Shown here piece by piece: positions 3,301 to 36,905 of a stretch of DNA of 64,000 nucleotides (its first letter is position 1; the number at the start of each line of letters is the position of its first letter). Position numbers and translations under genes: made by a program. The stretch lies in the NCBI RefSeq assembly GCF_039530225.1, contig NZ_BAAAOH010000001.1:1178001-1242000 (forward strand). Direction: 5' to 3'. Source of the stretch: Microbacterium pumilum. GTDB lineage: Bacteria > Actinomycetota > Actinomycetes > Actinomycetales > Microbacteriaceae. The notes below the pieces were generated by a model. That model was not told the origin of the DNA. It was given only the letters and a program-made list of their open reading frames with translations, and ran no database searches.

Positions 3301-3336
3301 CTCTTCTCCTTTCGTTATGAGGCACCCGTGGCTGCC

Positions 3337-19510: not shown

Positions 19511-20083
19511 CGTGTTCCACCGCCCTCTCTGGATCATGGTGTTGACACCGAGCGGCTGTGCAGGATGCCTTGCCTCACGGCCATCCATCCATCCACTCCC
19601 TCGGCACGGTAGTCACGTCATCAAGTCGGCGCTTCATACACATGAGATGAACTGACTCGTCGGCCTCCCGGCATGCAGTCGAGACGAGCGTGCGCGGTGC
19701 ACCGATGTGCTCCGCCTTGGATGGGTGGCCATTCGCCTTCAAGTTCTTGCCGTCCTCTTCTCGACGAGGACGGCGACAAGTCGTGGACGATCGTCTCGCG
19801 CGACTAATGTGCGCCGGCACGGCTCTTTGTGGAGCGGCGGTCGGTCAGTTGACAAGATCGACCGCGCGCCTGAGTCGGTTCGTGGCGGTCCAGAACGGCT
19901 AAAAGCTCCGTCTCACCCACCTCGAAGCCGACTACTTCCCTTCTGCCGTCGGCGGCGACACCTACTGAGCCCACATGCTTGGGACACCGCCGACGGCCGA
20001 CCGGGGCCTTGCAGTAGGCGACATGAACCCTCGGAAACCAGGTCCGCACGCTCCCGGTTGTGCCACCATATCGGTGGGGTGGC
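19511..20083. other. Intergenic region without supported gene
   Basis: This stretch of 573 bases divides the minus-strand DUF1269-like gene from the plus-strand regulator. No open frame shows convincing coding features. It probably holds divergent promoters, but none can be placed safely. Confidence 0.4.
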
Positions 20084-22345
20084 ATGCGATATATCGGCGA
20101 TGGTTCCGTGGCGCGCGACGACGAGCCGGCCTTCGATCTCCTGGAGTCGAAGCTGGCGCGGCCCCCCGTGCGCCCCGGAATGGTGGAGCGGCGGTCGCTG
20201 CTGGAGCGCCTCGCCCAGCCGGACGGTGCCGCCGTCGTCTCGATCGTCGCGCCGGCGGGGTACGGCAAGACCACGCTTCTCAGCCAGTGGGCCGATCGTG
20301 ACCCCCGCCCGTTCGCCTGGATCTCGGTGGATGAGAATGACAACGACCCCAAGATCCTGCTGAGCTATGTCGCGTCAGCGCTCGACCGCATCGAGCCGAT
20401 CTCGCCAAGCGCGTTCGACGCGCTCAGGTCCCCCGCGAGCTCGGTCGCGGGCACGGTCGTTCCACGGCTTGGAGCCGCGCTGGCCGGGATCGGCCAGCCC
20501 GTCGTGATCGTGGTGGATGATGTGCACCTGGTGCACGACACCCAGGCGCGCGCTGCGCTGTCGGTGCTTGCGGAGCATGTTCCAGCAGGCTCTCAACTGG
20601 TGTTCGCGGGTCGGTCGGATCCTCCCGTGCGGGTTGCTCGACTGCGGGTGGAAGGCCGACTGCTCGAGATCGGCAGACGCGATCTCGAGCTCACCGTCGA
20701 GCAGGCGGGCGCGCTGTTGGCCGGCGCACACGCCAAGGTGCGCGATGAGGACATTGTTGCGCTGCATCGCAGCACGGAGGGGTGGCCGGTCGGACTCTAT
20801 CTGGCGGCGCTCTATATCCGCGAGGGTGGGGATTCTGACACGATGCCCACGCGCTTCAGCGGGAGCGACAGGCTCGTGGGCGAGTACGTCGAATCGGAGT
20901 TCCTCGAGCGGATGTCCCAAGGGCGCCGGACATTCTTGACGCGAGCATCGGCGCTGGATCGGATGTCGGCATCCCTCTGCGAAGCTGTGCTGGATGTGCC
21001 GGGTGCCGCCGGGTCGTTCGAAGTGCTGTCGAAGTCGCACCTCCTCCTCGTTCCACTCGACCGCGAGGGGCATTGGTATCGCTTCCATCACCTCTTCCGA
21101 GACATGCTGCGCGCCGAGTTGACCCGACATGAGCCCGACATGCTCCCGGCCATCCGGCGACGCGCCGCAGCATGGTGCCTGGAGCATGATCGGCCGGAGG
21201 AAGCGATGGAGTACTCGATCCTGGCGGACGACGTGGACACTGCGGCCCGCCTGCTCCAGACGCTCTGGAGTCCGGTCCATCGTCGCGGCCAGATCGCGAC
21301 GCTGCAGCGTTGGTTCGACTGGCTCGACGAGCGACATGGCATCGACCGGTACCCGCTCAACGCGATGAATGCCGCCTTCCTGGCGATGACCACGGGACGC
21401 GCGCCGGCCGCCGAGCGCTGGATGGCGGCGGTCGATCGCTGGGAGTCGAGCGTGTCCGGCTCTCTCGATGCATACACAGCGGGGATGGCGGCCACCCTTC
21501 ATGCCTTGGCGTGCAGAGATGGAGTTGATCGCATGCGCCAGGATGCCGACGAAGCCGCACGTCTGCTGGCCAAGGTCGACTTCCAGGGAGCGATTACGCC
21601 GCTCCTCCGGGGCGCCGCTTGCGTGCTGCTCGGTGAGCTCGATGACGCCGAGGCCTTGTTTGCGGACGCGGCGAGTCTATCTCCCAAGAATCAGTCCATC
21701 GACGTCCTCGCCATGGTGCGCTGCCAGCAGGCGATCGTGGCGATCGCCCGCAAGGACTGGGCAGCAGCTGAGGCGTTCACCCACCAGGCACAAGCCGCCC
21801 TTCGCGAGGCAGGTGTGGAGCACTCCTATGCCGCGGCCTTCACACAGGCGCTGTGGGCTCGCATGCGACAGCATCGCGGCGAGATCGCGGCTGCGCGCGA
21901 CGCGCTCGCGATGGCACTCCGGCTGCGTCCCATCCTCACTTACGTGCTCCCCGACCGCGCAGTCCAGTGCCGCTTGCTGATCGCGCGCGTCCAGCTGGCA
22001 CTCGACGATCTCGCGGGGGCCCGGACCGTGATGCGCGAGGTCGATGAGATCCTGAAGCGACGGCCGCAGCTGGGCGTCCTGGTCTCGGAGGCCGACGAGC
22101 TGCGACGTCACCTAGACGCGCAGCGCGATGTCGCTCCCGAGGGGGCGACATCGCTCACCAGCGCCGAGCTGCGGGTGCTGCCGTTGCTGGCGACACACCT
22201 GACCTATTCCGAGATCGCCTCGGAGCTGTTCGTCTCGAAGAACACCGTCAAGTCGCAGGCGTATTCTGTGTTCCGAAAGCTCGGAGCGAACTCCCGCGGT
22301 GAAGCGGTCATGCGGTCCCGGGAGCTCGCGCTTCTCGAAGCCTGA
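20084..22345 (+). CDS. STAND-type LuxR-family regulator (MalT-like)
   Basis: The 753-residue protein has a P-loop NTPase module (Walker A VAPAGYGKTT near residue 55; VVIVVDDVHLVHD as Walker B), a winged-helix/helical middle, TPR-like helical repeats, and a C-terminal LuxR domain (LTSAELRVLPLLATHLTYSEIASELFVSKNTVKSQAYSVFRKLGA). MalT-like regulators bind an inducer and nucleotide, oligomerise and activate promoters. It directly precedes the MFS and sulfatase genes and is the best candidate for reading the TTTCATCTCATCGG motif. GTG 20060 is an alternative start. Confidence 0.88.
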   Translation: MRYIGDGSVARDDEPAFDLLESKLARPPVRPGMVERRSLLERLAQPDGAAVVSIVAPAGYGKTTLLSQWADRDPRPFAWISVDENDNDPKILLSYVASALDRIEPISPSAFDALRSPASSVAGTVVPRLGAALAGIGQPVVIVVDDVHLVHDTQARAALSVLAEHVPAGSQLVFAGRSDPPVRVARLRVEGRLLEIGRRDLELTVEQAGALLAGAHAKVRDEDIVALHRSTEGWPVGLYLAALYIREGGDSDTMPTRFSGSDRLVGEYVESEFLERMSQGRRTFLTRASALDRMSASLCEAVLDVPGAAGSFEVLSKSHLLLVPLDREGHWYRFHHLFRDMLRAELTRHEPDMLPAIRRRAAAWCLEHDRPEEAMEYSILADDVDTAARLLQTLWSPVHRRGQIATLQRWFDWLDERHGIDRYPLNAMNAAFLAMTTGRAPAAERWMAAVDRWESSVSGSLDAYTAGMAATLHALACRDGVDRMRQDADEAARLLAKVDFQGAITPLLRGAACVLLGELDDAEALFADAASLSPKNQSIDVLAMVRCQQAIVAIARKDWAAAEAFTHQAQAALREAGVEHSYAAAFTQALWARMRQHRGEIAAARDALAMALRLRPILTYVLPDRAVQCRLLIARVQLALDDLAGARTVMREVDEILKRRPQLGVLVSEADELRRHLDAQRDVAPEGATSLTSAELRVLPLLATHLTYSEIASELFVSKNTVKSQAYSVFRKLGANSRGEAVMRSRELALLEA

Positions 22346-22378
22346 CGGACGATCGTCACCTGTGAGCGGAGGCGAATA

Positions 22379-23830
22379 GTGACTCCTGCAACATCTGGCC
22401 CCAACCGGTCGCCGGCCGTCCGAAGCGGGATCAGAGGCGTGGTCGGCTTCCTCGTCGTCATGGAGTTCGGCAGCGGAATGCTGCAGGGCTGGTATCCACC
22501 TCTCCTGGGCGCGATCGGCACCGAGTTCGGCGTCTCACCGGCAGAGCTCAACTGGGTCGTGGCCGCATACCTGCTCGCCTCCGTGGTGTTCGTGCCGACC
22601 ATCGGCAAACTTGGGGACCGCTACGGGCACAAGCGGCTCCTCACGATCACTGCCGCCACGGTCGCGCTCGGATCGATCACCGTCGCGACGGCCCCCACCT
22701 TCGGACTCCTGCTCGTCGGCCGCGTCCTCGAGGCGCCGCTCACGGCGACACTCGCGCTCGAGTTCGCGATCGTTCGCGACCGTGACGAGAAGTCAGCCGG
22801 CCGCTCGATTGGGAAGCTCGTGAGTGCGCTGACGCTGGGGGCCGCGTTCGGCGGCCTCGGTTCCGGACTCGCGTTCGGCGTGTTCAATGCATTGCGGCCG
22901 ACACTCTGGGTGCCCGCGGTGTTTCTTCTGCTGTGCGTGCCCATCGTCTGGTTCCTCGTGCCGGAGTCAAACGTCCGCACGGAGGGCAGGATCGACTGGA
23001 TCGGGGCCGGGCTGCTCAGCCTGGGGCTGGTCAGCGTTCTGACCGGGATCGCGAACGCCGCGACGTGGGGTTGGACGAACCCCGTCACCTGGGCCCTGGT
23101 AGCGGTAGGCGCCGCGGTGCTCGTGGTCTGGGTGTTGGCGGAGCGCCGGATCAGCCACCCGCTCGTCGACATCGGGGTCCTCGTGCAGCGAGGAATCGGG
23201 CTGCCACTGGTGATAGCGTTCATCTTCGGTGCACAGCTGTTCGGCAGTCAGACGGCCTCGTCGGTGTACATGCTGAGCGACCCGGATGTGATGGGATTCG
23301 GCCTTGGCGTCACCCCCGCCGCCGTCGGCACGTTCGTGCTCGCGCAAGCCGGCGCCGCCTTCGTATCAGCCCTGAATGGCTTCCGGCTCGCAGGGCGGAT
23401 CGGCTCGAGGTCCACTGTCGCCGTCGGCGGCGTCCTCGTTGCGGCAAGCTATGTGATGCTCATACTCGCGCCGGCGTCACTCGTCGGGTTCTACGCCGCG
23501 TGGGCGGTCCGTGGCCTCGGCAATGGCCTTGTCATCTCGGTACTGCCGGCGATCATCGTCAAGCGAGCACCTGCGGACTCCGTCGGCATCGCGTCCGCGC
23601 TCTACACGACCTCCCGCACCGCAGCCGGTGCGGTTGCGGGGGCGGTGTTCGCCCTCGTGATGTCCAGCTTCCTCATGACGGTCGGAACCGGAGCCGGGGC
23701 GACGACGACGACATCGTTCACCGGGTACCTCGCGGTCTGGGGGATCTGCGCGGGACTGGGTCTCGTGGTGGCCATCCTCGCTCTTGTCATCAGGGAGCCG
23801 GTCGAGGCGGTCCGGCTGACGGCTGCCTGA
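22379..23830 (+). CDS. MFS transporter, DHA2-like (14 helices)
   Basis: GTG 22379 follows CGGAGG and gives 483 residues. About 14 hydrophobic helices are evident, with motif A GKLGDRYGHKRLL in the 2-3 loop and LNWVVAAYLLASVVFVPTIG before it. This fits drug:H+ antiporters of the DHA2 group. It lies 33 bases after the STAND/LuxR gene, probably co-transcribed with it. Its substrate is unknown; export of a product of the sulfatase pathway is possible. Confidence 0.85.
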   Translation: MTPATSGPNRSPAVRSGIRGVVGFLVVMEFGSGMLQGWYPPLLGAIGTEFGVSPAELNWVVAAYLLASVVFVPTIGKLGDRYGHKRLLTITAATVALGSITVATAPTFGLLLVGRVLEAPLTATLALEFAIVRDRDEKSAGRSIGKLVSALTLGAAFGGLGSGLAFGVFNALRPTLWVPAVFLLLCVPIVWFLVPESNVRTEGRIDWIGAGLLSLGLVSVLTGIANAATWGWTNPVTWALVAVGAAVLVVWVLAERRISHPLVDIGVLVQRGIGLPLVIAFIFGAQLFGSQTASSVYMLSDPDVMGFGLGVTPAAVGTFVLAQAGAAFVSALNGFRLAGRIGSRSTVAVGGVLVAASYVMLILAPASLVGFYAAWAVRGLGNGLVISVLPAIIVKRAPADSVGIASALYTTSRTAAGAVAGAVFALVMSSFLMTVGTGAGATTTTSFTGYLAVWGICAGLGLVVAILALVIREPVEAVRLTAA

Positions 23831-23859
23831 GCGAGCGGTCCCGCAAAGGCCAGGGTGCA

Positions 23860-23878
23860 TTTCATCTCATCGGTATGA
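23860..23878 (+). promoter_or_regulatory. Sulfatase operon promoter motif, copy 1
   Basis: TTTCATCTCATCGGTATGA lies 119 bases before the first sulfatase ATG and is followed, 41 bases from its start, by TAGCGTGC as a possible -10. The same arrangement occurs at 33305, and an inverted copy at 33257. Confidence 0.55.
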
Positions 23879-23996
23879 AGCTCGCATCCGCGGGCGGTTC
23901 TAGCGTGCACAACGTAGGCGCTGGAGTTCCGATCAGCATCTGAAGCTGTCGGGTTCAGCTGCCCGCGAACAATCACGGGTGGGAAAGGTGACTGAG

Positions 23997-25559
23997 ATGG
24001 CCGATAAGCAGCCGAACATCGTGGTGTTCTTCTGGGACAACTTCGGGTGGGGTGAGCTGGGATGCTATGGCGGTGGTGTGCTCCGCGGAGCGCCGACGCC
24101 GAGGATTGACAAGTTCGCGAGCGAGGGGCTCAAGCTCCTCAACTTCAACGTCGAGGCGCAGTGCACCCCGAGCCGCTCCGCGATCCTGACGGGTCGGCAT
24201 CCCGTGCGCTCTGGAACGCACAGCGTCGCGATGGCGCCGCCGGACGGCCTCACGCGCTGGGAGATCACGACCGCGCAGGCTCTGTCCGATGCCGGGTACG
24301 CGACCGGGATGTGGGGCAAGTGGCATCTGGGCAGCGACCCCGAGAATCGGAGCCCGGTGGACTTCGGATTCGACGAGGCCGTGTGGTCGCCCCGGACCGC
24401 GGACGAGGTGCTGTGGACGACGCAGTCGTACTTCCCCAACGGCAACGTCACCGCGAAGCCTTACGCCGGAGAGATGGAGATCCCGATCGAGCCGGAGACC
24501 ATCTACTCGCGCAAGAAGGGCGAGGACCCCGTGCCCGTGTCCGTGTATGACGCGGAGTTCCGGGCGGGTTTCGACCGGAAGATCACCGAGTGGGCGATCG
24601 ACTTCATGAATCGTTCGCACAAGGACGACAAGCCGTTCTACATGTATCTGCCTTACACGCAGGTGCACATCCCGCCGATTCCCGACCCCGAGTACGTGGG
24701 CAAGACCAAGCGCGGCAACTGGGCGGACATCCTCACCCAGATGGATGACTTCACGGGTCGCGTGCTCGACGAGCTCGACAAGCTCGGCATCGCCGACGAC
24801 ACGATCGTGGTCTGGGCCTCTGACAACGGCGCGGACTCCACGTATCACGCGCCCGCGAGCGACCCGGATCCGTTGGGCGCGCAGTGGAACGGTTTCTCGG
24901 GGCCGTGGCGCGGCTCGCTGTTCACCGCGCTGGAGGGCTCGAACCGGACTCCGTGCATGATCCGCTGGCCGGGCAATGTGGCGGCTGGGCGCGTCAGCAA
25001 CGAGCTGGTCCACGAGGTGGACCTCTTCACGACGCTCGTGCTCGCCGGAGGCGGAACCGTGCCGAACGATCGGGCAATCGACGGCATGGACATGCGCGAC
25101 TTCCTCCTCGGGGATGCGGAGGAGTCCGGTCGTGAGACGATTCTCTGCTTCAATGCCAACCGGCTGCAGGCGATCAAGTGGCGCCAGTGGAAAGCACACC
25201 TGTTCCAGCAGGACGACTTCTACTCGACATGGGTGCCGTACAGCATCCCGCACATCTTCAACCTCGAATGGGATCCGCGCGAGGAGAATCAGGTCGACTT
25301 CCCGCACTTCTGGGTCGCACACCCGATGGCTGCCGCGGCCGCCGCGTTCCTGAAGTCCCTCGCGATGGAGCCGCCGATCAAACCGGGGACGCCAGATCCG
25401 TACACGCCGCCGGCACCCGGACAACTCGTACCGCAGGAGCATCTGCAGATCGGCCCCATCGTGCAGTACATCACCACGCTGCACCACCCGGATCCGGCGC
25501 CGATGGAGCTGAAGGACCACCAGCCGGACCACGGCATGGGTGCACACCAAGGCGCCTGA
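23997..25559 (+). CDS. Type I (formylglycine) sulfatase, about 520 residues
   Basis: ATG 23997 has AAGGTG at good spacing; GTG 23979 would add six residues. The activation motif is CTPSRSAILTGRHP with the modifiable Cys at residue 56. Other active-site pieces are NIVVFFWDNFGWGELGCYGG (Asp then Asn where many sulfatases have DD), GMWGKWHLG, YTQVHIPP and WASDNGAD. There is no signal peptide, so it is probably cytosolic and would hydrolyse imported sulfate esters. Activation needs FGE, encoded at 32301. The substrate cannot be read from sequence. Confidence 0.88.
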   Translation: MADKQPNIVVFFWDNFGWGELGCYGGGVLRGAPTPRIDKFASEGLKLLNFNVEAQCTPSRSAILTGRHPVRSGTHSVAMAPPDGLTRWEITTAQALSDAGYATGMWGKWHLGSDPENRSPVDFGFDEAVWSPRTADEVLWTTQSYFPNGNVTAKPYAGEMEIPIEPETIYSRKKGEDPVPVSVYDAEFRAGFDRKITEWAIDFMNRSHKDDKPFYMYLPYTQVHIPPIPDPEYVGKTKRGNWADILTQMDDFTGRVLDELDKLGIADDTIVVWASDNGADSTYHAPASDPDPLGAQWNGFSGPWRGSLFTALEGSNRTPCMIRWPGNVAAGRVSNELVHEVDLFTTLVLAGGGTVPNDRAIDGMDMRDFLLGDAEESGRETILCFNANRLQAIKWRQWKAHLFQQDDFYSTWVPYSIPHIFNLEWDPREENQVDFPHFWVAHPMAAAAAAFLKSLAMEPPIKPGTPDPYTPPAPGQLVPQEHLQIGPIVQYITTLHHPDPAPMELKDHQPDHGMGAHQGA

Positions 25560-25585
25560 GCTCACACCACGAGAGGCTGACGATC

Positions 25586-26728
25586 ATGAGCGACGGGCCC
25601 CAGGGCCTCACGGATGCCGGGGCCGGCGCGCGCGCCGGCTCCGGGGGGGAAATCGCCATCCTCCTCGAGTGCTTCAACACCAAGAAGGGCGCGGGCGAGG
25701 CCCGCAAGGGGCTGGATGCCGGGCTGAAGGCCAAGGGCGGAACCCTGCTCGACAGCGTCGTGCTCGAGGTCGACGCCAAGCGCAGGGCGGCCGTGCACGA
25801 CCCACGCCGGGTTCTGCTGGGCACCCTGACCGCGGCCCTCACATGGGGGCTGTTCGGCCTCATCGCCGGTGGATGGAGTGGGCTCGCGGTGTGGGCGGTG
25901 CTGGGTGCGATCTGCGGCGGGCTGTGGGCGTATTACACCGAGCACCAGCTGAGCAAGAACGAGCTCACGCGGATCGGCGCCCGGCTGCCGGCGAACTCGT
26001 CGGCTCTCGCCACTTTCGCGGAGACGCGGGATGCTGCCGCGCTTCTCGCGGTCGCCGCCTCCCACGCGCCGGTGACCGCGAGTGTGGCCGCGATCGGCGC
26101 CGACCTGGGCGCCAAGGTCTATGTCGGTGGATCGAGCCCCATCGAGTCGTCTTCATCTACGGGCAAGGGCGGCCTCCCTCTGGATCAAGCCGCGCTGACG
26201 TCGATGGTGGTGTTCCGATACCCGGATGCGGACACGGCGAAGCTCATCGCCGATGATTCCGCATCCGGCAAGGGGTCGAGGCCGCCGCTCGATATCGAGC
26301 TGATCTTCCGCTCCGATCCTGACGGCCGCCGGCACGTCACGTCGCCGACGTACGGCGCCGCGGCCAACTCGCTCCAGTCCCTGATCAGCTGGGCGGCTTT
26401 CGGGCTCGTATACGGCGCCATCGTCGGCGTGGTCTCCGGGGGCGGCGTGCTCGGCATGCTCCAGAATGCCCTGGTCGTCGGGGTGCTGTGGGGTCTGTTC
26501 GGAATCGTCGCCGGGGCCCTGTTCGGGCTGTGGGCGGGCCGCGGGGTCTCCGCCCGGCGACTGCGGAGCGTGGGTGCGCTGCTGGCGCCGAACTCATCCA
26601 TCCTGCTCGCGTGGACCGACCGAGCGGTCGACCAGGCGACGCTCGACCGGTACCTGCGGCCGGGCGCGCAGCGCCTCGTGCTGCGATTCAATCCCGTGCC
26701 CGGCGGCGCCCTGCTGGAAGCCGCCTAA
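25586..26728 (+). CDS. Membrane protein with duplicated DUF1269-like unit
   Basis: ATG 25586 follows GAGAGG and gives 380 residues. The same unit occurs twice: an alpha/beta start (EIAILLECFNTKKGAGEARKGL), a glycine-rich helix pair (TLTAALTWGLFGLIAGG...VWAVLGAICGGLWAYY), and a closing RIGARLPANSSALATFAET; later SWAAFGLVYGAIVGVVSGGGVLG and SVGALLAPNSSILLAW. It lies between a sulfatase and a TRIC-type channel gene, 26 and 23 bases away, so all are likely one operon. Its role is unknown. Confidence 0.65.
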   Translation: MSDGPQGLTDAGAGARAGSGGEIAILLECFNTKKGAGEARKGLDAGLKAKGGTLLDSVVLEVDAKRRAAVHDPRRVLLGTLTAALTWGLFGLIAGGWSGLAVWAVLGAICGGLWAYYTEHQLSKNELTRIGARLPANSSALATFAETRDAAALLAVAASHAPVTASVAAIGADLGAKVYVGGSSPIESSSSTGKGGLPLDQAALTSMVVFRYPDADTAKLIADDSASGKGSRPPLDIELIFRSDPDGRRHVTSPTYGAAANSLQSLISWAAFGLVYGAIVGVVSGGGVLGMLQNALVVGVLWGLFGIVAGALFGLWAGRGVSARRLRSVGALLAPNSSILLAWTDRAVDQATLDRYLRPGAQRLVLRFNPVPGGALLEAA

Positions 26729-26751
26729 GAACCGCCAAGGGGGACACCACA

Positions 26752-27552
26752 ATGATGGACATCTTGATGAGCGCCCAGCCGATCGACTTCGGCGGGTGGA
26801 AGTGGACCGGCGACTTCACGACGCTCGACCTGATCGCCGCAGGGACCAACGCCCTGAACGGGGCGCTGCTTGCGAGACGCCCTGACCACTACAAGAACTT
26901 CACGGTTATCGGCATCTTCGGTATGGCCTTCCTGATGGGCCTCGGGGGAGGCATCACGCGCGACGTGATCGTCAACGAGGTGCCTGGAGCCTTGACCAAC
27001 CCGGCATACATCACGGTCGCCTTCGTCTGCGGGCTCATCGGCTATCTGCTGGCGTATGGCAAGGGCCAGATGTTCCGTGAGGGCCTGTTCCAGTTCGTGA
27101 CGTCGTTCTCGCTTCCGCTGTATGCGATCGTCGGCGCGCAGAAGGGTGCCGCGGCCGGGCTTCCCGTGCTCGGCATCCTGGCCCTGGCCGTCATCGGCCC
27201 GACGTCCGGTCGCTGGTACGTCGATGTGTCCAGCGGCGTCACGCCCAAGCAGTTCATCCGCGGCGAGTGGTTCGTGAGCATCGCGGCGCTGACGGGCCTC
27301 ATCTGGGTGATCTGCGACGCGGCGGGCCTGAACGTCTGGTGGTCGAGCGGCATTTCGTTCGTCATCGGCTACACGCTGCGCGTCGTCGCCCTGTACCGCG
27401 GCTGGGAGGAGCCGCTCGCGAAGGAGCCCGCCGGAGTCTACAAGCACGACGACGGCCGGCCGCTGCTCGGCCGCAAGCTCGCCGGCAAGTCGGAGCGCGA
27501 ACTCCACGACCTCGGTCTCGTCGTCGCGAAAGACTCCGACACCGCGAAGTGA
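26752..27552 (+). CDS. TRIC/UPF0126-type cation channel family protein
   Basis: The product has 266 residues and about seven hydrophobic helices. The first UPF0126 unit shows TLDLIAAGTNALNGALLARRP and FGMAFLMGLGGGITRDVI, the glycine-rich kinks of prokaryotic TRIC channels. The second unit starts near YAIVGAQKGAAAG and ends in ALYRGWEEP. TRIC proteins form trimeric cation channels. In this operon it may balance charge during transport, which is inference. AAGGGGG precedes the ATG. Confidence 0.75.
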   Translation: MMDILMSAQPIDFGGWKWTGDFTTLDLIAAGTNALNGALLARRPDHYKNFTVIGIFGMAFLMGLGGGITRDVIVNEVPGALTNPAYITVAFVCGLIGYLLAYGKGQMFREGLFQFVTSFSLPLYAIVGAQKGAAAGLPVLGILALAVIGPTSGRWYVDVSSGVTPKQFIRGEWFVSIAALTGLIWVICDAAGLNVWWSSGISFVIGYTLRVVALYRGWEEPLAKEPAGVYKHDDGRPLLGRKLAGKSERELHDLGLVVAKDSDTAK

Positions 27553-27597
27553 ACCACCCGCGGCTGGCCTTGGCCGGCCCAGTCCGAAAGGGCGGAA

Positions 27598-29994: not shown

Positions 29995-30039
29995 CGAGGG
30001 CTCTCGGCAGCGCGGCACCGATCAAAGAGGGATACGACG

Positions 30040-30939
30040 ATGACTGCACAGGATCTGTTCAACGCGCTCTTCAACGCAGGACTCGTGATCATGCTGCTCA
30101 CGCTCGTCGCGAGCCTTGGAATGACGTTCAGCGTCAGGCAAGTGCTGCAGCCGCTCAGGAGGGTCTGGCTGCTGCTCGGCACGATCCTGGTCAACTCGGT
30201 GCTCGCCCCGCTCGTAGCCATCGGGGTCGGCTACCTGTTCCCGCTCAGCGCCGAGGCGCGTGTCGGCCTGGCGATCGTGACCGTCGCAGCAGCAGGACCG
30301 GCCGGGTTGAAGGCCTGTCAGTTCGCGAAGCGGGCCGACATGGCCATGGCGGTGTCGTTCACCATCGTCCTTCAGGTCGTGAACATCCTCGTCGCACCGC
30401 TGTGGGCCGTGGCCATCGTGACCGGGGCCAGCGTCAACCCGTGGAGCATCGTCGTCGACCTCCTGTTCCTCGTGCTGCTGCCGCTCATCGTCGGGTTGAT
30501 CCTCCACAGCCGCTACCCCGACCATCGCGAGAGCTGGAAGGCGGGCCTCGAGAAGATCTCCGACATCGCGCTCTACGTCGCGCTCCTCGCAGGGCTGGCG
30601 GCCAACTGGGAGGCGGTGGTCACGATTCTCGGGACGTGGGTCATCCTGGCCTCGGTGGTGATCATCTTCGTGTACACCCTTCTCGGGTGGGTCGTCGCAT
30701 TCCGCGACTCGACCGCGGCCGTCACCATCTCGATGATCTCCGCTATGCGCTTCACACCCATCGGGCTGGTCGTGATCTCGACGGTCCTTCACAGCGAAGG
30801 CTCGTATCTCACCCCAGCTCTCATGTTCGCCCTCATCGACACGGTGATCCCGTTCCTCATCGCAGCCGAGCTCGGCAGGCACTACACGCGGAAGTCCGCG
30901 GCGACCGCATCGGCGGCGAGGACCCGCGCGTCTGCCTGA
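30040..30939 (+). CDS. Bile acid:sodium symporter (BASS) family transporter, copy 1
   Basis: The 299-residue protein is almost all membrane helices (about nine), with the paired glycine-rich regions of the BASS fold: SLGMTFSVRQVLQPLR, TVAAAGPAGLKACQFAKRADMAMAVSFTIVLQVVN and STAAVTISMISAMRFTPIGLVVIS. BASS proteins import organic anions, including sulfated steroids in animals. It ends the operon after two sulfatases, so uptake of a sulfate ester is a sensible guess. AGAGGG precedes the ATG. Confidence 0.8.
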   Translation: MTAQDLFNALFNAGLVIMLLTLVASLGMTFSVRQVLQPLRRVWLLLGTILVNSVLAPLVAIGVGYLFPLSAEARVGLAIVTVAAAGPAGLKACQFAKRADMAMAVSFTIVLQVVNILVAPLWAVAIVTGASVNPWSIVVDLLFLVLLPLIVGLILHSRYPDHRESWKAGLEKISDIALYVALLAGLAANWEAVVTILGTWVILASVVIIFVYTLLGWVVAFRDSTAAVTISMISAMRFTPIGLVVISTVLHSEGSYLTPALMFALIDTVIPFLIAAELGRHYTRKSAATASAARTRASA

Positions 30940-30967
30940 GCAGCGGGTGTCGGGCGTCGACGTCTGG

Positions 30968-32281
30968 TCACGCCTGCGAAGGGTCGGCCGCGCGCCGAGC
31001 CATTCCGATGCCCTGGCGGTCGGGGATCAGCGCATCACCGCGCTGCGACTCGGGGAAGGCCGACGCTACCGCGTCGTCGAGCAGAGCCAACTGTCGGCGC
31101 AGCGGCGGCAGGCGGCGCTCGGGCAGATCGCCGATGAGCGCATCGAGCAGAGCGCGGAGGCGCCGAGCGATCTGATACTGGTTCGCGCCGAACTGGCGGA
31201 TCTCATTCAGCGCGAGTTCGACGAGGTCCTCCCAGGTCGGGGTCGGGTACATGAGGCGCACGACCCCCTCGCGATCGGGGACGGCTCCGGCGGACAGGTG
31301 CTTGCCGGATGCGTACCGCAGCAGATCCTCGATCCTGTCGATGGACTGGACCGCCGTAGTCGGGTCGTTGACCGCGGGGGATAGGGCCTTGATGGCGACG
31401 TCCACCAGCATCCGGATCGCGAACGCGGGGTCGAAGTCAATCGTGCGCTCGTCGTCGAGGATCACGGATCGTCGCAGTCGCGCCTCGGGGAGGCGCTTGG
31501 TGCCGTAGACGCTGAGCAGCGAGCCGTTCGCCGGCACGTGGTCGCCGACCGCCTGCCGCATCTGGATGACCGCATCGCCTCTTTTCGCGAGTGCGACGAG
31601 CGCGACCTGATCGAGCGTGGCGATGACGGAGCCGACGGCGCCGGCGTAGATCGTCTGGATCGGGGTCTCGTTGCTCACTCGCTGAGCTGTCAGCTGAGCC
31701 CGTTCTGCATCGGATTGACTGGTCGGGTAGACGACGTCGAAGACTCGCCGTGCCGAGGCATCCACCTGCTGCACGACGTTCGCGACGCGAAGACCGTTCA
31801 TCGTGCGCTCTATCAGCAGGAGGAACATGAGGATGCTGAGCAGGGTGAGCGCTGTGGCGGCGATCAACGACCGGGTGGGCGAAGGTGCTCCCGAGGCCGT
31901 GCTGATCTGCGCCGTCGAAGCCAGGGCGAAGAGGAATGTCGCGATGAAGGCGCTGAGTGAGAGGTTCAGCGTGCGGTCGCTGCGCAGCCAGCGCACCAGT
32001 CGAGGCGAGAACTCGCTCGTTCCGAACTGGACGATCAGCAGCACCACCGAGGTGACGAAGCCCGTGAAGGCCAGCATCCCGCTCGCGAGCGCCGACATGG
32101 TCACCTGGGCGCTCGCCGCGCTCACGCTGAATACGTCGGTCACGGGGTCTGCGGCATCCCATTGCGCGAGTGCGAAGCTCAGCAGCAGCGCGACCAGAGC
32201 GTAGATGGCCGGGAAGAAGAGCATGCTCGACATGAGCCGCTCCCAGAGCCGCCGGCCCCTGATGTTCCCCGGGATGTTCAC
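30968..32281 (-). CDS. DUF2254 family membrane protein
   Basis: GTG 32281 gives 437 residues. Four membrane helices occupy the first 160 residues (LFFPAIYALVALLLSFALAQW; SGMLAFTGFVTSVVLLIVQFGTSEFSPRLVR), followed by a long soluble part with AFAIRMLVDVAIKALSPAVNDPTTAVQSIDRIEDLL, a signature of DUF2254. The function is unknown in the family. It lies 19 bases after the FGE gene and is probably expressed with it. Confidence 0.85.
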   Translation of the reverse strand: MNIPGNIRGRRLWERLMSSMLFFPAIYALVALLLSFALAQWDAADPVTDVFSVSAASAQVTMSALASGMLAFTGFVTSVVLLIVQFGTSEFSPRLVRWLRSDRTLNLSLSAFIATFLFALASTAQISTASGAPSPTRSLIAATALTLLSILMFLLLIERTMNGLRVANVVQQVDASARRVFDVVYPTSQSDAERAQLTAQRVSNETPIQTIYAGAVGSVIATLDQVALVALAKRGDAVIQMRQAVGDHVPANGSLLSVYGTKRLPEARLRRSVILDDERTIDFDPAFAIRMLVDVAIKALSPAVNDPTTAVQSIDRIEDLLRYASGKHLSAGAVPDREGVVRLMYPTPTWEDLVELALNEIRQFGANQYQIARRLRALLDALIGDLPERRLPPLRRQLALLDDAVASAFPESQRGDALIPDRQGIGMARRAADPSQA

Positions 32282-32300
32282 GCCGCGGCCCGCATCTGAA

Positions 32301-33212
32301 TCAGGCGTCGGTCACGCACCGGAAGCCCACGTGGGACATGGCGGTGTCTTCTGCCTGCGCAGAGCGTGCGGCCGGCCGGAACCGCAGGCAGTACTCCGGC
32401 GAGCACAGGAATGAACCACCCTTGAGCACGCGCCGTGCTGTGCGCTCGCCCTCGCGGGCGCTGGCGGTGGCGAGCAGATTCAGGCGCTTGCCCGGATCGA
32501 CCGGCTCGTCACTGAGGGTGAGGTGCCGTGGGGTGTAGTAGTCGGACGTCCACTCCCAGACGTTGCCCATCATGTCGTGCAGACCGTACCCGTTGGCGGG
32601 GTACGAACCCACCGGCGCCGTGCCGCCGACTCCCTGGTTGTCGTACGGAAAGCGCCCGAGCCAAGAGTTCGCCTGGGGCACCCCGCCCGGGTACGGCTCG
32701 TCCCCCCACGCGAAGCGAGCACCGTCGACCCCGCCGCGGGCCGCGTATTCGTGCTCGACCTCCGTCGGCAGTCGCTTGCCCGCCCACGTCGCGTACGCTT
32801 CGACATCCTCGTAGGCGACATGAACGACCGGATGCCGCATCCTGTCGTCGATCGAGGATCCCGGGCCGAACGGCGCCCGCCAGCTGGCGCCCGGCTGCCA
32901 CCGCCACCAGTTGCGCCAGTTTCGCAGATCGACGGGGCCCGCCGTGGGCGTGAAGACCATGGCGCCAGGCACGAGGTCCTGGGGCGAGGCGCCCGGCATG
33001 GCGGTGGCATCTATCGGTCGCTCCGCCACCGTCACGTAGCCGGTGTCGGCGACGAAGCGGTCGTAGTCCTCGTTCGTGACCTGGTACCGGTCCACGCGGA
33101 AGTCCGCGACGCAGCGCTCCACAACAGGCTGCTCGTCGGCATAGAACTCGTCGGAGCCCATGCGGAAGGTGCCGCCCGCGATGAGTACCATCTCACGATC
33201 GTCTCTTGCCAC
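32301..33212 (-). CDS. Formylglycine-generating enzyme (sulfatase-modifying factor)
   Basis: This 303-residue FGE-sulfatase domain protein converts the CxPSR cysteine of sulfatases to formylglycine, using oxygen and copper. It opens with MVLIAGGTFRMGSDEFYADEQPV and has HPVVHVAYEDVEAYATWAGKRLPTEVEHEYAARGG, NVWEWTSD and GGSFLCSPEYCLRFRPAARS. The two active-site cysteines are Cys270 and Cys275, and the ending HVGFRC is normal. Start GTG 33212 follows GAGG. A copy of the shared promoter motif lies just upstream, so both sulfatases and their maturase are likely expressed together. Confidence 0.93.
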   Translation of the reverse strand: MARDDREMVLIAGGTFRMGSDEFYADEQPVVERCVADFRVDRYQVTNEDYDRFVADTGYVTVAERPIDATAMPGASPQDLVPGAMVFTPTAGPVDLRNWRNWWRWQPGASWRAPFGPGSSIDDRMRHPVVHVAYEDVEAYATWAGKRLPTEVEHEYAARGGVDGARFAWGDEPYPGGVPQANSWLGRFPYDNQGVGGTAPVGSYPANGYGLHDMMGNVWEWTSDYYTPRHLTLSDEPVDPGKRLNLLATASAREGERTARRVLKGGSFLCSPEYCLRFRPAARSAQAEDTAMSHVGFRCVTDA

Positions 33213-33256
33213 GTCTCACCTCGCGTCCAGTGTCGGGGTGGGGCGTTCCGCTCGCA

Positions 33257-33275
33257 TCATGCGGATGAGATGAAG
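33257..33275 (-). promoter_or_regulatory. FGE operon promoter motif, copy 2 (inverted)
   Basis: Read on the minus strand, CTTCATCTCATCCGCATGA matches the motif before the first sulfatase at 16 of 19 bases. It lies 45 bases before the FGE start. A good -10 at the same distance as the other copies is not obvious. Confidence 0.45.
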
Positions 33276-33304
33276 CGCCGGGATGCCGTCGAGATGGAGG
33301 CGGA

Positions 33305-33323
33305 TTTCATCTCATCGGCATGA
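33305..33323 (+). promoter_or_regulatory. Lipoprotein/BASS operon promoter motif, copy 3
   Basis: TTTCATCTCATCGGCATGA differs from the copy at 23860 at one base. TAGCGTGC follows 42 bases from its start, against 41 at the first copy. With the inverted copy 30 bases away it forms a divergent control region. Confidence 0.55.
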
Positions 33324-33452
33324 TGCCGTCGACCATCGCCCCGGCATAGCGTGCCGAACGAACAGGCCGCACCTCGCCCTCGCAGGAATGATCATGCAGG
33401 TCTTGCCCTCCGGACGCACGCGGCGACTGCGACAAGGAGGGTGTGCAAAGTC

Positions 33453-35846
33453 ATGAACGCCTCAGCCGGGCGCCGGAGCGTCACAAGCCCCGTTCGGATG
33501 CCTTCATCGAAGTCCACGATGCTGCGTCGCAGCGGAATCGTCGTCACGGTCGTCGCTCTCCTCTCGACGATGGCGGGATGCTTCGGACCCGCCGGCTCCG
33601 ACTCCGCCACCCTGATGCCCTCTCCGACGTCGACGCCCTCGGCGGTGGTCCGCGGATCGGCCTCTGCGGACGCTCCTTGCGCGGCTCCAGATGAGTCGAC
33701 GCCCTATTCCCCCATACCGGCCGACTTGGCTGTCGCCAGCGACCAAGAAGGATGGGTGGGCGTCTTCCAAAGGGTCGATGCTCGGTTCAATCGCGACGGC
33801 ACGCTGAAGAAGGATCCGCGTGAATCCACAGTCATCTCGGTGAGCGGCGACAAGCCGGTCTCCGTGAAGGTCCCCGTGTCGAGCACCGATGCCCGGCTCG
33901 TGCCGACCAAGGGACACGCAGAGCCACCCAAGAAGGTCGACGTGAATGGTGGCGTCGCAGAAGTGGCCTTCACCCCCGAGGGAGTCGCCGACAAGAAGAT
34001 CGAGGCACGCTACGACAAGCCGCTGCCCGTCGATGTCGCCGTGAGCTACACATTCAACGGGGAGCCGGTTAGCGCTGAAGACGTCGACTCCAAGATCAAG
34101 AACAAGAAGGGCACGGTCCAGATCACCTACACGCTCACCAACACGACCAGCACCCCGGTGACGGCGTGCTTCACCGGGTTCGACGGCCAGCCCCAGACCC
34201 AGACGCTCACGACGCCGCTGCCGATCCTCGCATATCTGACCGTCACCGTGCCCGACGCGACCACGAGCTTCACGGCACCCGGTGCCGCGCCGTCGCACAG
34301 CAAGTCAGGTGTGGCCGTCGGGTGGACCGGCGCGCTGTTCGAGCCCTTCGGGTCGACGAAACAATCTTTCACGCTCACCATGACGACAGCAAAGTCCTCC
34401 GTGCCGCAAGCGAGCGTGATCCTGGCGACCCTCGACCCGTGGTCGATCACGGGCCAGGTGGCTGCCGCCTCGGCGCAGTCGCTGGGTACGGCTCAGGCGG
34501 CTGCGAGGAAGGCGATGTCGGCTGTCGAGACCTCCCTCGATGCCATCCAGCAGCGCATGTCCAGCTTCCAGGGGTCCAGCGGCCAGACCACGGCGTCCGG
34601 CGCGCGGTCGCCGATCTCGCTGCCTGCCGTCAACGGCGCGGGAGTGCACCTGCCCGGCGTTTCAATCCCCGCGATCCAAGCACCCTCCATCGATACGCCC
34701 GCACTTCTGCTGCCCCCCGTGGTGGACTTCACCGCCCCTCAGCTCACGGTCCCGACCATGGTCGACCCAGGCCTTCCCCTCCCCGACTTCGCGGGACTCC
34801 ACAAACAGCTCGCCGTGGTCATCGGCGCGCTTGATGCGGGACCGACCGCGGCCAAGCTCGCAGCGCTCGAGACGGCCGTGAGCGCTTCTGCGGGCAACGT
34901 GAACGCCGTGACGGAGGCGGCGAAGGCGTTGGCCGACCTCACGAAAGCTCTCAAGAACTCGGCGCAGAAGGCCTCCGATGGTCTGGACGGGATCGTGGCA
35001 CAGGTGCCGCCGGCACTGGACAAGGCGGTCAAGCTGCGCCAGCTGCTCGACCAGATCCAGACCGATGTCGACGCTCTGCAGCATCCCGCGGACGCAGCGT
35101 TGCAGAAGGTGAACGATGACCTGACCGCTGCCCGCGATCTCACGGATGCTCTCGTCACAGCACTCACGAACCTCGACAACGTGGCGCACACCGCTCAGGC
35201 AGACGTCGCGGCACTCAAGACGAAGGTCACCACTCTTGAGCGGTCCGCCGCTGATCTCGTGACCACGCTGACCGGCAAGCTGGTCTCGGGACAGAGCGCC
35301 CTCGAAGCTGCCCAGACCGACGCTGCCGAGACGATCATGGCCCAGCTCGGCGCCGCTGGTGACGCCGCGGTGGCTCTCGGCTCGAAGCTCGACGCCGAGG
35401 CCGCGCAGAGCGATAAGAACAAGGGCACGCTGGCGGAATTGATGGATGCTGTCGTGAAGCGCTCCGCACAGAAGGCCGTCCAAGAAGCGGAGGACAAGGC
35501 TGCCGCAGCCGTCGCTAAGGCACATGCCGCTGCGCAGAACGCCGTGAATTCTGCGAATGCCACCCTGGGTGCAGCCATCGCCAAGGCCAAGGCGGCGACG
35601 GCCGACGCCGCCGCGCGGGCAGCCCAGCAGGCATCCCTGGCAATCCAGGATGCGGAGGCTTCAGCCCGGGAGGCGGCCGGCGCGACCGCCGCGGAGGTCG
35701 GCGACGGCGTGACCGCCGCGAACGACGCCTTCGCTCAACTCCTGTGCCTGAACCAGCAGGCGCTGCTACACCAACTGCCGGCCGGCAGCGCGACCGGGGT
35801 CAGCTCGCAGAACGGCCGATTCGCCTACATCATCGAAGGCTCGTGA
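33453..35846 (+). CDS. Large lipoprotein with beta domain and long coiled-coil tail
   Basis: ATG 33453 lies 12 bases after AGGAGG (797 residues). ATG 33519 has a weaker ribosome site but gives an ideal lipoprotein signal, MLRRSGIVVTVVALLSTMAGC, with the lipid-bearing Cys. A beta-rich domain (VSVKVPVSSTDARL; VQITYTLTNTTSTPVTACF) follows, then a Pro-rich stretch and an Ala-rich helical tail of about 350 residues that should form coiled coil. It resembles extracellular parts of YhgE/Pip-type proteins but without their membrane helices. The role is unknown; a wall or envelope stalk is possible. Confidence 0.65.
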   Translation: MNASAGRRSVTSPVRMPSSKSTMLRRSGIVVTVVALLSTMAGCFGPAGSDSATLMPSPTSTPSAVVRGSASADAPCAAPDESTPYSPIPADLAVASDQEGWVGVFQRVDARFNRDGTLKKDPRESTVISVSGDKPVSVKVPVSSTDARLVPTKGHAEPPKKVDVNGGVAEVAFTPEGVADKKIEARYDKPLPVDVAVSYTFNGEPVSAEDVDSKIKNKKGTVQITYTLTNTTSTPVTACFTGFDGQPQTQTLTTPLPILAYLTVTVPDATTSFTAPGAAPSHSKSGVAVGWTGALFEPFGSTKQSFTLTMTTAKSSVPQASVILATLDPWSITGQVAAASAQSLGTAQAAARKAMSAVETSLDAIQQRMSSFQGSSGQTTASGARSPISLPAVNGAGVHLPGVSIPAIQAPSIDTPALLLPPVVDFTAPQLTVPTMVDPGLPLPDFAGLHKQLAVVIGALDAGPTAAKLAALETAVSASAGNVNAVTEAAKALADLTKALKNSAQKASDGLDGIVAQVPPALDKAVKLRQLLDQIQTDVDALQHPADAALQKVNDDLTAARDLTDALVTALTNLDNVAHTAQADVAALKTKVTTLERSAADLVTTLTGKLVSGQSALEAAQTDAAETIMAQLGAAGDAAVALGSKLDAEAAQSDKNKGTLAELMDAVVKRSAQKAVQEAEDKAAAAVAKAHAAAQNAVNSANATLGAAIAKAKAATADAAARAAQQASLAIQDAEASAREAAGATAAEVGDGVTAANDAFAQLLCLNQQALLHQLPAGSATGVSSQNGRFAYIIEGS

Positions 35847-35921
35847 CACCGCGCGGTGTCCCTAAGGGCCTCATCACGCGACTGCGGTTCCATGCGCAGC
35901 CTTGTAGCACCGGGAGGACCA

Positions 35922-36905
35922 ATGGATAACAGCACGGTGAACGCCATCATCGTGGCGTTCGGATTGCTCTTCGTGATCGCCAATGGCCTTTCGCTCGGGA
36001 TGCACGTGAAGGTCGGTGAGACCCTCGCGCATTTCGTTCGGAACTGGAAGTTCGCGCTTCTGACTTTGCTTATCAACTTCGTCGTACTGCCGTCGCTGAT
36101 CATCGGGTTCGCGGCACTGGTCGACATCCCGGCTGACATCAAAGTCGGGTTCTGCATCGTCGCTCTTGCGGCGGGAGCGCCGTTCGCACCGCTGCTGACG
36201 AGACTGGCCAAAGCGGATGCGGCGATGTCGACGACACTCTTCATCGTTCTGATCGCGGGGACGCTCATCGCCGTGCCGCTCGGGCTGCCGCCAGCCGTTG
36301 CGGCGCTGGTGCCCAGCATCCCTCCCGTGCATGTCTGGGACGTCGCCTGGCCGCTGCTTCTCTTTCTCGCCGCACCGTTGGCTCTGGGGTGCCTCTTTCG
36401 GCTGCGCTACCCCGACGTGGCCGAACGCTTCGCGAAGCCGCTGCAGATCATCGCAATCACCGCTCTTCTGCTGTACGTCAACGTCTTCATCGCCGCGTAC
36501 CTGGACCTGTTCGGACAGGCTTGGGGATCCGGCGCGTATCTTGCGGCGATCGGCGTCCCCGTCCTGGGAATCATTCTGGGCAGCCTCATCCGCCTCCGAG
36601 ATAGGGGCGCCCGTCAGGCCGCCGTCATCACAACCGCCCAGCGCAGCGTTGGCGGCGCGATCATCGTGACCATCTTCACGTACCCTCAGCCCCTGGCCAA
36701 CGTCTCGGTCACCATCATCAACACCATCGGGATCATCGTCTTGCTGATCCTCAGCCTGGAATGGCGCCGCGCCGCGACGCGTGCCCCGCAGCGAAGCTCC
36801 GATAGCTCCACGCCACACGCCCACCGGTCGCAGGGATCAACGAGCAGTCCCGACGGAGCCACACATTCGCGGTCGCCCGGTTCAGCGACGCAGTCCAACG
36901 ATTGA
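35922..36905 (+). CDS. BASS-family transporter, copy 2
   Basis: ATG 35922 follows GGGAGG and gives 327 residues with about nine helices. Family features are the FGLLFVIANGLSLGMHVKVGETLAHFVRNWK start, ALAAGAPFAPLLTRLAKADAAMSTTLFIVLIAGTL and TTAQRSVGGAIIVTIFTYPQPL. It is diverged from the copy at 30040. A hydrophilic Ser/Arg-rich tail of about 40 residues follows the last helix. It lies behind the lipoprotein gene and probably shares its promoter. Confidence 0.78.
   Translation: MDNSTVNAIIVAFGLLFVIANGLSLGMHVKVGETLAHFVRNWKFALLTLLINFVVLPSLIIGFAALVDIPADIKVGFCIVALAAGAPFAPLLTRLAKADAAMSTTLFIVLIAGTLIAVPLGLPPAVAALVPSIPPVHVWDVAWPLLLFLAAPLALGCLFRLRYPDVAERFAKPLQIIAITALLLYVNVFIAAYLDLFGQAWGSGAYLAAIGVPVLGIILGSLIRLRDRGARQAAVITTAQRSVGGAIIVTIFTYPQPLANVSVTIINTIGIIVLLILSLEWRRAATRAPQRSSDSSTPHAHRSQGSTSSPDGATHSRSPGSATQSND

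Follow-up and report, generated by a model that had tools for sequence, protein, structure and literature searches.

The closest described systems for taking up and cleaving sulfated organic molecules come from Pseudomonas and from vertebrates. Soil sulfur is about 95% organic, with sulfate esters and sulfonates as its major forms (PMC4267179, in excerpt). The Pseudomonas ats/sft cluster (atsACBR-sftR-atsK-sftP) combines an ABC importer with a LysR-type regulator, and the literature searched yielded a single described importer of sulfate esters in prokaryotes, which is an ABC system (PMC3596284, in excerpt). In vertebrates, the carrier SOAT (SLC10A6) imports sulfated steroids, which are cleaved by an intracellular steroid sulfatase; carrier and sulfatase are separate genes, and the system is Na+-dependent and steroid-specific (PMC10298714, in excerpt).

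We analysed a 64,000-nucleotide stretch of Microbacterium pumilum DNA, referred to here as the window. At 17.5-37.6 kb, at a tRNA-Ser hot spot, it contains an island encoding two type I sulfatases (Sulf1 and Sulf2), an FGE, two BASS carriers, and TRIC-type, DUF1269 and DUF2254 membrane proteins, together with a lipoprotein, a STAND LuxR regulator and an MFS gene. Like ats/sft, the island places a P. aeruginosa-type arylsulfatase beside a regulator and a dedicated, here putative, sulfate-ester importer for sulfur supply; unlike ats/sft, with its ABC importer and LysR-type regulator, it has BASS carriers and a STAND LuxR regulator (PMC3596284, in excerpt). The island also differs in having a linked FGE and DUF1269, TRIC, DUF2254 and lipoprotein genes, and the genes called in 18971-36905 gave no Pfam match to an ABC family, such as an atsRBC importer would show. 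As with SOAT and steroid sulfatase, a BASS/SLC10-type carrier, here a putative importer, is paired with a predicted intracellular sulfatase (PMC10298714, in excerpt), whereas the island forms one putative regulon, its sulfatases have no membrane anchor and the Na+ site of BASS1 is not conserved. Finally, in having a Sulf2-type arylsulfatase near FGE, the island resembles the sulfatase-FGE pairs that occur in actinobacteria and haloarchaea. Unlike the island, the pairs in the chromosomal loci that we examined were without carrier, DUF1269, TRIC or DUF2254 relatives by tblastn. We propose, with a probability of about 0.6, that the island was acquired horizontally and works, under its own regulation, as a unit for organic sulfate ester use, in which BASS carriers mediate uptake and desulfation takes place in the cytosol.

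Island borders and a shared sequence element

The att-like repeats that the initial annotation had placed around the module are real. They are direct repeats of about 85 bp that terminate in the tRNA-Ser(CGA) 3' end, as is found at integrative elements sited at tRNA genes. The last 27 nt of the right repeat (37554..37638, + strand) match the 3' end of the intact tRNA-Ser(CGA) gene, which lies about 36 kb ahead of the left repeat, at 27 of 27 bases. The left repeat (17494..18600, + strand), also of the tRNA-Ser 3' end type, is split by an IS481-type insertion (transposase ORF at 17563-18534) with a 17-bp target repeat, and this copy has diverged. IS elements and a second element also occur near the island. 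A search for tyrosine integrases covering the PF00589 family gave no match between the repeats; the nearest, at 1159895 and 1177049, both lie outside.

All genes listed in the initial annotation were recovered in place, with start codons picked by eye. Two genes absent from it are the MFS gene (22379..23830, + strand), 33 bp after the regulator gene, and a gene for a small membrane protein (18971..19588, - strand), whose resemblance to DUF1269 is weak (E 0.045, below the cut-off). The island had also been described as self-contained. It does have its own FGE, but the genome encodes a second one, 78% identical to it, with another large arylsulfatase about 10.5 kb away, and the repeats enclose no PF00589 integrase match. 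A third, weaker PF03781 match is present in the genome. Conserved synteny of the whole island was sought in phylum, family and plasmid searches and not found, and the DNA copy in the plasmid collection amounted to only 208 bases, in Embleya.

Intergenic gaps in the transcription units of the island are 9-45 bp. The element TTCATCTCATNNNNATGA, noticed post hoc after inspection of repeats, has four exact copies in the 4.45-Mb genome, all inside the island, each upstream of and oriented toward one transcription unit. Copy 1 (19634..19651, - strand) precedes the small membrane protein gene, copy 2 (23861..23878, + strand) the sulfatase operon, copy 3 (33257..33274, - strand) FGE-DUF2254 and copy 4 (33306..33323, + strand) lipoprotein-BASS2, so that the four units jointly contain both sulfatases, the FGE and both BASS genes. 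A scan of the 4.45 Mb allowing at most 1 mismatch returned these four matches, every one exact, and the reversed-pattern control returned 0; at 2 mismatches, 0.11 matches are expected in the window. No fetched locus outside this island carried a copy. Because four island-only copies are distributed one per unit, the island looks like one private regulon, with TTCATCTCATNNNNATGA as a putative shared promoter element.

The candidate regulator is the STAND LuxR/MalT-like protein (20060..22345, + strand, likely start 20084). It would probably sense the substrate or sulfur state and activate the four TTCATCTCATNNNNATGA units, a putative pairing of regulator and element. In another genome (G028), a Sulf2 relative is directly preceded by a regulator with 41% identity to this protein over its length, and that locus has no TTCATCTCATNNNNATGA at up to 3 mismatches.

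Sulfatases, FGE and carriers

Sulf1 (23997..25559, + strand) and Sulf2 (27598..29994, + strand; 798 aa) were initially annotated as unrelated. Both match PF00884, although they belong to different subfamilies. Each has the formylglycine motif C-x-P-S/T-R of type I (S1) sulfatases, CTPSR in Sulf1 and CSPSR in Sulf2, and the Cys and Arg of the motif are present in 121 of 121 sequences in either set, query included. Type I sulfatases have an active-site Lys after the DN motif and a pair of Asp that act as metal ligands. Sulf2, whose best solved relative is the P. aeruginosa arylsulfatase, has the DD pair (121/121) as well as Lys 421 and Lys 424 (each 121/121), either of which may be the counterpart of the active-site Lys. 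Sulf1 has WDN in place of DD, and all 120 ungapped sequences of its set show Asn where the second Asp would be; the WDN motif is present in 119 of 120 relatives, at residue 12-44 (median 13). It has Leu at the position of the active-site Lys in the solved 7aj0 and in arylsulfatase A, and its set has Leu (60), Tyr (59) or Met (2) there among 121 sequences. Lys375 is not mentioned in PMC5870055.

A hydropathy scan found no hydrophobic N-terminus in Sulf1, Sulf2 or the FGE. This agrees with the absence of sulfatase signal peptides reported in the initial annotation, and a cytosolic location of both sulfatases is suggested by their sequences. The FGE, a sulfatase-activating enzyme (32301..33212, - strand), is of the SUMF1 type: its FLCSPEYC aligns with FLCHESYC of 6s07 (E 1.9e-65), and the Cys pair in this stretch is presumably catalytic. 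Vertebrate steroid sulfatase is activated by FGE. In the island, the FGE would generate formylglycine from the active-site cysteine in each sulfatase. The two enzymes would then split esters into sulfate and an alcohol or phenol, and the cell would most likely use the esters for their sulfur.

BASS1 (30040..30939, + strand) is the last gene of the sulfatase operon, and BASS2 (35856..36905, + strand) follows the lipoprotein gene by 9 bp. SBF matches of 49.1 bits (BASS1) and 48.1 bits (BASS2), against a cut-off of 24.3, place both in the BASS/SLC10 family. With the predicted model of BASS1 (pLDDT 80.6), Foldseek ranks 1-27 were all solved BASS/SLC10 bile-acid carriers, with a TM-score of up to 0.83 (human NTCP). 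Aligned to 28sx, BASS1 has Ile for Glu and Arg for Gln at the positions that we take to be the Na+ sites of these carriers. Among 33 aligned sequences, the first column is without Glu and the second holds Arg (31) or Lys (2). BASS2 has Ile for the Glu and retains the Gln. The absence of the Na+-site Glu and Gln from BASS1 bears on its ion coupling and transport direction and is a point against import. In the proposed reading, both carriers would import negatively charged sulfated organic molecules. Steroid-like sulfates, put forward as a substrate in the initial annotation, were considered since SLC10A6 carries them, and dropped as unsupported, with nothing among the island genes pointing to steroids.

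The remaining proteins may have accessory roles. The sulfatase operon encodes the DUF1269 membrane protein (25586..26728, + strand) and a homologue of prokaryotic TRIC channels (26752..27552, + strand), with a PF03458 match of 65.8 bits over two stretches and 5wuf, 5wtr and 5h35 as best PDB matches. The DUF2254 gene (30968..32281, - strand) lies 19 bp after the FGE gene. The large lipoprotein (33498..35846, + strand), with lipobox STMAGC and a coiled-coil-like appearance, both judged by eye, had no Pfam family match and no relatives in the plasmid collection by tblastn. Together with the MFS transporter, these proteins could serve ion balance, export of the desulfated product and membrane capture.

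Carrier-sulfatase linkage in other organisms

Are the transporters linked to sulfatases elsewhere? The initial annotation had staked its reading on this question, and we found such linkage both on plasmids and in same-phylum genomes. On six plasmids, a BASS gene and a Sulf2-type arylsulfatase gene are at most about 10.5 kb apart, and in most cases much less. Four are haloarchaeal (Halorussus, Halobaculum limi, H. lipolyticum and Haloarcula, the last with the genes about 10.5 kb apart) and two cyanobacterial (Nostoc and Sphaerospermopsis). FGE is annotated on five of the six, the Sphaerospermopsis stretch being without one, and the Nostoc carrier is also beside the sulfonate-use genes ssuD/ssuC. 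These archaeal and cyanobacterial carriers are only distant relatives of BASS1 and BASS2. From 441 records with a Sulf2 match, 20 were considered and 16 inspected, four Streptomyces goshikiensis rows being left out and two unannotated loci searched by tblastn; SBF was neither annotated nor found in 10 of the 16. The BASS1 plasmid search (4 records) is no census of SBF, as it missed the Nostoc, Sphaerospermopsis and Halobaculum lipolyticum carriers.

In 396 same-phylum genomes, three BASS1-like genes besides the own match were detected at E 1e-25 or better, a limit of our choice, and all three lie beside sulfatase genes or FGE. One (G106) neighbours an anaerobic sulfatase maturase and a protein in which DUF1269 is fused to a sulfatase, and another (G097) neighbours DUF1269, SulP permeases and an alkylsulfatase of type III. 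The third (G086) is at a contig end, where it neighbours an FGE and a relative of DUF2254 and no sulfatase was seen. By tblastn, 0 of 12 other SBF genes, two of them below the SBF cut-off, were near such genes; in this control the maturase, alkylsulfatase, SulP and DUF1269 queries were drawn from the positive loci, which were also read with Pfam, and the control loci were searched by tblastn only.

Relatives of Sulf1 and BASS1 also occur on contigs of identical exact size: four of at least 7 kb (0.035 expected; 0/2000 shifts), in a test on the best 120 rows per list in which equal size is no proof of the same contig. The count at 4 kb or more was likewise four, reached by 1 of 2000 shifts. For Sulf2 and BASS1 there were two at either size (27/2000 shifts at 4 kb or more, 0/2000 at 7 kb or more), and a contig of 38987 bases is counted in all three pairs. 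Sulf1-Sulf2 linkage alone is weak, since its two contigs of at least 4 kb and one of at least 7 kb gave 71/2000 and 112/2000 shifts. Viral contigs with Sulf1 gave no pattern match. In Synechococcus, a cluster of sulfonate-use genes contains a Sulf1 relative. With the own genome set aside, Sulf1 was found in 3 of 396 phylum genomes at E 1e-100 (43-45% identity) and in 1 of 398 family genomes at 1e-90 (40% identity).

More distant, chromosomal relatives of Sulf2 have other surroundings. Neither BASS1 nor BASS2 relatives were found by tblastn in 37 such loci (34 genomes; about 49-61% identity), and SBF was not among the families listed for Sulf2-relative neighbours (25 of 82 and 25 of 74 families listed, so that the remainder may include a few SBF members). 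The Prescottella defluvii relative is 81% identical in its best segment, with the match broken over several frames, and no other window genes were found by tblastn in its 22-kb locus. The initial proposal of organic-sulfate uptake and cytosolic desulfation on transferable DNA thus gains from the shared element, the plasmid and phylum linkage and the control, but the 37 carrier-free chromosomal loci count against it, as do the 10 plasmid loci with no SBF, the Lys missing from Sulf1 and the distant kinship of the archaeal and cyanobacterial carriers.

Alternative readings and implications

How else might the island be read? It could be a stress or membrane-homeostasis cassette, in which the sulfatase substrates are sulfated lipids or further sulfate esters made by the cell itself, and BASS, TRIC, DUF1269 and DUF2254 serve ion and osmotic balance rather than feeding. 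Neighbours of Sulf2 relatives in same-family genomes (n=114) include genes in keeping with this, namely mechanosensitive channel (6), AI-2E (4), SfLAP (4) and DUF6325 (3), and haloarchaeal plasmids carry HdeD, AI-2E, LURP, DUF1269 and TIGR00341. However, sulfate permeases (4/114 and 2/109 neighbours) and the neighbouring alkylsulfatase and sulfonate-use genes point to sulfur handling, and we regard such a cassette as unlikely. It is quite improbable that the BASS proteins instead carry the desulfated product, or an anion like sulfate or sulfite, out of the cell, with the ester entering otherwise, for example via the MFS transporter. The Na+-site residues missing from BASS1 and the presence of an MFS gene in the island are consistent with export, but the vertebrate BASS-type carrier imports sulfated steroids for an intracellular sulfatase (PMC10298714, in excerpt), and the MFS protein weakly resembles drug exporters, though below curated cut-offs, and has no TTCATCTCATNNNNATGA copy pointing at its gene.

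A third possibility, that unrelated genes accumulated by chance at a tRNA hot spot for integration, would accord with the Sulf2 relatives that occur without these neighbours and with the IS elements and second element nearby. We nevertheless reject it as very improbable, because four units share TTCATCTCATNNNNATGA, which is absent from the rest of the genome, and because carriers and sulfatases are linked in other organisms. We favor the reading in which BASS carriers bring organic sulfates into the cell for desulfation in the cytosol, probably to supply sulfur.

We see roughly even odds for a broader proposal, that of a prokaryotic system for uptake and desulfation that has gone unrecognised and that plasmids and islands have carried across actinobacteria, cyanobacteria and haloarchaea. 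It would combine BASS carriers dedicated to organic sulfates with sulfatases of either of two unrelated classes, and DUF1269 would belong to its core, to the point of being fused to a sulfatase. Its sulfatases would be of the formylglycine type I, with an FGE or a radical-SAM maturase, or of the metallo-beta-lactamase type III, and in microbes the system would correspond to the SOAT-steroid sulfatase pathway of vertebrates. The BASS-sulfatase pairing in archaea and cyanobacteria suggests a little-noticed microbial route for the uptake and desulfation of sulfated organic molecules. If a recurrent BASS-sulfatase-maturase unit exists, it would give a large carrier family a testable substrate class and a clue to what DUF1269 does, and the putative private promoter element would be a ready reporter for finding the inducer.

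Gene units and a shared upstream element

The window (1178001-1242000 of a single-contig genome of 4,451,674 bases) had been described in the initial annotation as carrying a sulfatase island with its own maturase, two BASS carriers and a STAND regulator between att-like repeats. Pfam, NCBIfam and PDB searches bore out this gene list and added two genes: an MFS gene between the regulator and sulfatase 1 (Sulf1), and a small membrane protein (18971-19588, - strand) at the left end. From gene spacing and strand, with start codons picked by eye, we drew the units LuxR-MFS (gap 33 bp), Sulf1-DUF1269-TRIC-Sulf2-BASS1 (26, 23, 45 and 45 bp), FGE-DUF2254 (19 bp) and lipoprotein-BASS2 (9 bp), with the small membrane protein as a single gene.

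The common element gives the strongest support for reading the gene set as a single functional unit. Its 18-nt pattern, TTCATCTCATNNNNATGA, was derived from the 28-nt repeat D4. At up to one mismatch it has four matches in the whole genome, all exact and all inside the island; the reversed pattern has none genome-wide, and the chance expectation in the window at two mismatches is 0.11. One copy faces the small membrane protein and the other three face the operons of the sulfatases, FGE and lipoprotein-BASS2, which places both sulfatases, FGE and both carriers under one common signal. No copy is directed at the LuxR-MFS unit.

The STAND LuxR gene (20060(20084)-22345) is likely the island's regulator because its relatives adjoin those of Sulf2 elsewhere: a full-length relative (41% identical) lies immediately upstream of one in genome G028, and a partial relative at a contig end (42% over 483 residues) lies upstream of one in G013, of the same genus. 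We infer that this regulator pairs with the shared element, which is absent at up to three mismatches from the G028 locus. Another gene of the window (47327-50698, - strand) fuses a protein kinase domain to a MalT-like TPR region and a LuxR DNA-binding domain.

Sulfatases, maturase and carriers

The nearest named relatives of the sulfatases are in Nocardioides, Leifsonia and Prescottella. Sulf2 (27598-29994) has P. aeruginosa arylsulfatase as its closest solved structure, an enzyme assigned to S1_4 by SulfAtlas in an excerpt of PMC5066984, and its conserved motifs are retained across its 120 relatives. Sulf1 (23997-25559) retains the formylglycine motif; its chemistry may be unusual, as judged from residues: the active-site Lys of solved relatives is replaced by Leu, Tyr or Met in 121/121 sequences (Sulf1 and 120 relatives), and its subfamily has WDN in place of DD. 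Neither sulfatase has a hydrophobic N-terminus, so both are probably cytosolic. The sulfatase-activating enzyme, FGE (32301-33212, - strand), has the aligned cysteine pair. At 705-719 kb of the same genome (L016 7292-20000 and L017 1-934), a second FGE, 78% identical, lies about 10.5 kb from a 40% Sulf2 relative; between them are another MalT-like regulator and genes that look, by eye, ABC-transporter-like, PLDc_N-like and DUF1269-like.

BASS1 (30040-30939) is predicted to resemble bile-acid carriers, which took all of ranks 1-27 in Foldseek at 17-20% identity, with a best TM-score of 0.83 to human NTCP (model from 33 sequences; mean pLDDT 80.6, pTM 0.76). At the positions that we take, from ASBT, to be the Na+-site Glu and Gln, BASS1 has Ile and Arg. 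Among 33 aligned sequences none has Glu at the first position, and the Gln position is Arg in 31 and Lys in 2. BASS2 (35856-36905) has Ile for Glu and retains Gln.

Carrier-sulfatase linkage in other genomes

BASS1 relatives at E 1e-25 or better occur, besides its own match, in 3 of 396 phylum genomes. In G106, a 991-aa fusion (L154:4719-7694, - strand) with DUF1269 on the N-terminal side of a type I sulfatase neighbours an anaerobic sulfatase maturase (above curated cut-off), DUF6325 and a BASS1-like gene whose match is spread over two frames. In G086, FGE, a carrier gene and a relative of DUF2254 with 26% identity are consecutive at a contig end, with no sulfatase seen. The G097 carrier accompanies SulP permeases, a type III alkylsulfatase and DUF1269. 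By tblastn over the surrounding 14-20 kb, none of 12 further SBF genes, taken from seven genomes including our own, has such neighbours.

Four of 72,556 plasmid records match BASS1, three with a Sulf2-type arylsulfatase and FGE nearby (carrier to nearest arylsulfatase, 30 bp, 2.6 kb and about 10.5 kb). We also examined 16 of the 20 plasmid loci of Sulf2 relatives listed from 441 records, a survey sharing three plasmids with the first. Six have an SBF carrier (Halorussus, Halobaculum limi, H. lipolyticum, Haloarcula, Nostoc and Sphaerospermopsis) and 10 have none by annotation or tblastn; on the Nostoc plasmid, the FGE-arylsulfatase-BASS trio adjoins ssuD and ssuC. Where these archaeal and cyanobacterial carriers can be aligned with BASS1 or BASS2, identity is 28-31% (one pair 24%), and the Sphaerospermopsis carrier matches neither directly; the plasmid linkage thus holds at the superfamily level rather than between strict orthologues. 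Among the best 120 metagenome proteins per query, relatives of BASS1 and Sulf1 lie on contigs of exactly the same size, at least 7 kb, four times (0.035 expected; 0/2000 shifts), and those of BASS1 and Sulf2 on same-size contigs twice (0.044 expected; 0/2000 shifts).

Other results speak against such linkage. Sulf2 relatives are common, occurring at E 1e-100 in 62 of 398 family genomes, our own included, but across 37 chromosomal loci in 34 genomes, with relatives about 49-61% identical and three of the loci spanning less than 13 kb, tblastn found no relative of the window's BASS, TRIC, DUF1269 or DUF2254. The 223 neighbours within about 3.6 kb of Sulf2 relatives include FGE (9) and sulfate permease (6); mechanosensitive channel (6), SfLAP (4) and AI-2E (4) appear among the first 114, and DUF4436 (7) is commonest among the other 109, followed by FGE and ribosomal proteins. 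SBF is absent from the 25 families listed for each set. At three chromosomal loci of Sulf1 relatives, two of which have FGE, tblastn likewise found no BASS relative. Nor is SBF annotated in any of four Sulf1-related plasmid regions, of which the first belongs to a sulfonate cluster, another has FGE, a third has neither and the last is unannotated. In G013 (L130 2203-7902), ORFs that look by eye sulfate-permease-like, GAP/SfLAP-like and HdeD-like come after the Sulf2 relative, with a MalT-like regulator near.

Integration site and proposed role

The att-like repeats that flank the island, 20 kb apart and in direct orientation, end in the 3' portion of tRNA-Ser(CGA), whose intact gene is at 1159592-1159682. 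The right repeat is identical to the tRNA end at 27/27 bases; the left (window 17494-18600) is diverged and interrupted by an IS481-type insertion, whose 17-bp target repeat seems long for that family. The nearest PF00589 integrases are outside the island, one next to the tRNA and one at 1177049 (G000:C1:1177049-1177633). To the left, on the tRNA-Ser side, the island is flanked by the latter integrase and by genes for a TraG/TraD-type coupling protein, SSB and a ParA-like protein (window 2848-7356). It therefore appears to be the outermost part of an array that grew by tandem accretion at the tRNA, adjoining a conjugative element.

The best-supported reading is that organic sulfates are taken up by the BASS carriers and then desulfated in the cytosol. 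We favour sulfur supply as the purpose because SulP and ssu genes occur as neighbours. The nearest described microbial system found, ats/sft of Pseudomonas, has an ABC-type importer, as excerpted from PMC3596284, whereas the island has BASS carriers; in P. aeruginosa, sulfur starvation raises atsA more than 95-fold, according to an excerpt of PMC12581299. The nearest mechanism is that of vertebrate SOAT with steroid sulfatase (PMC10298714, in part). Full-text literature searches, judged by titles and abstract openings and mostly confined to papers outside subscription, returned no description of a BASS-sulfatase unit. We therefore regard the island as a variant of the already known organosulfate scavenging clusters, of which the BASS-based form appears to be new.
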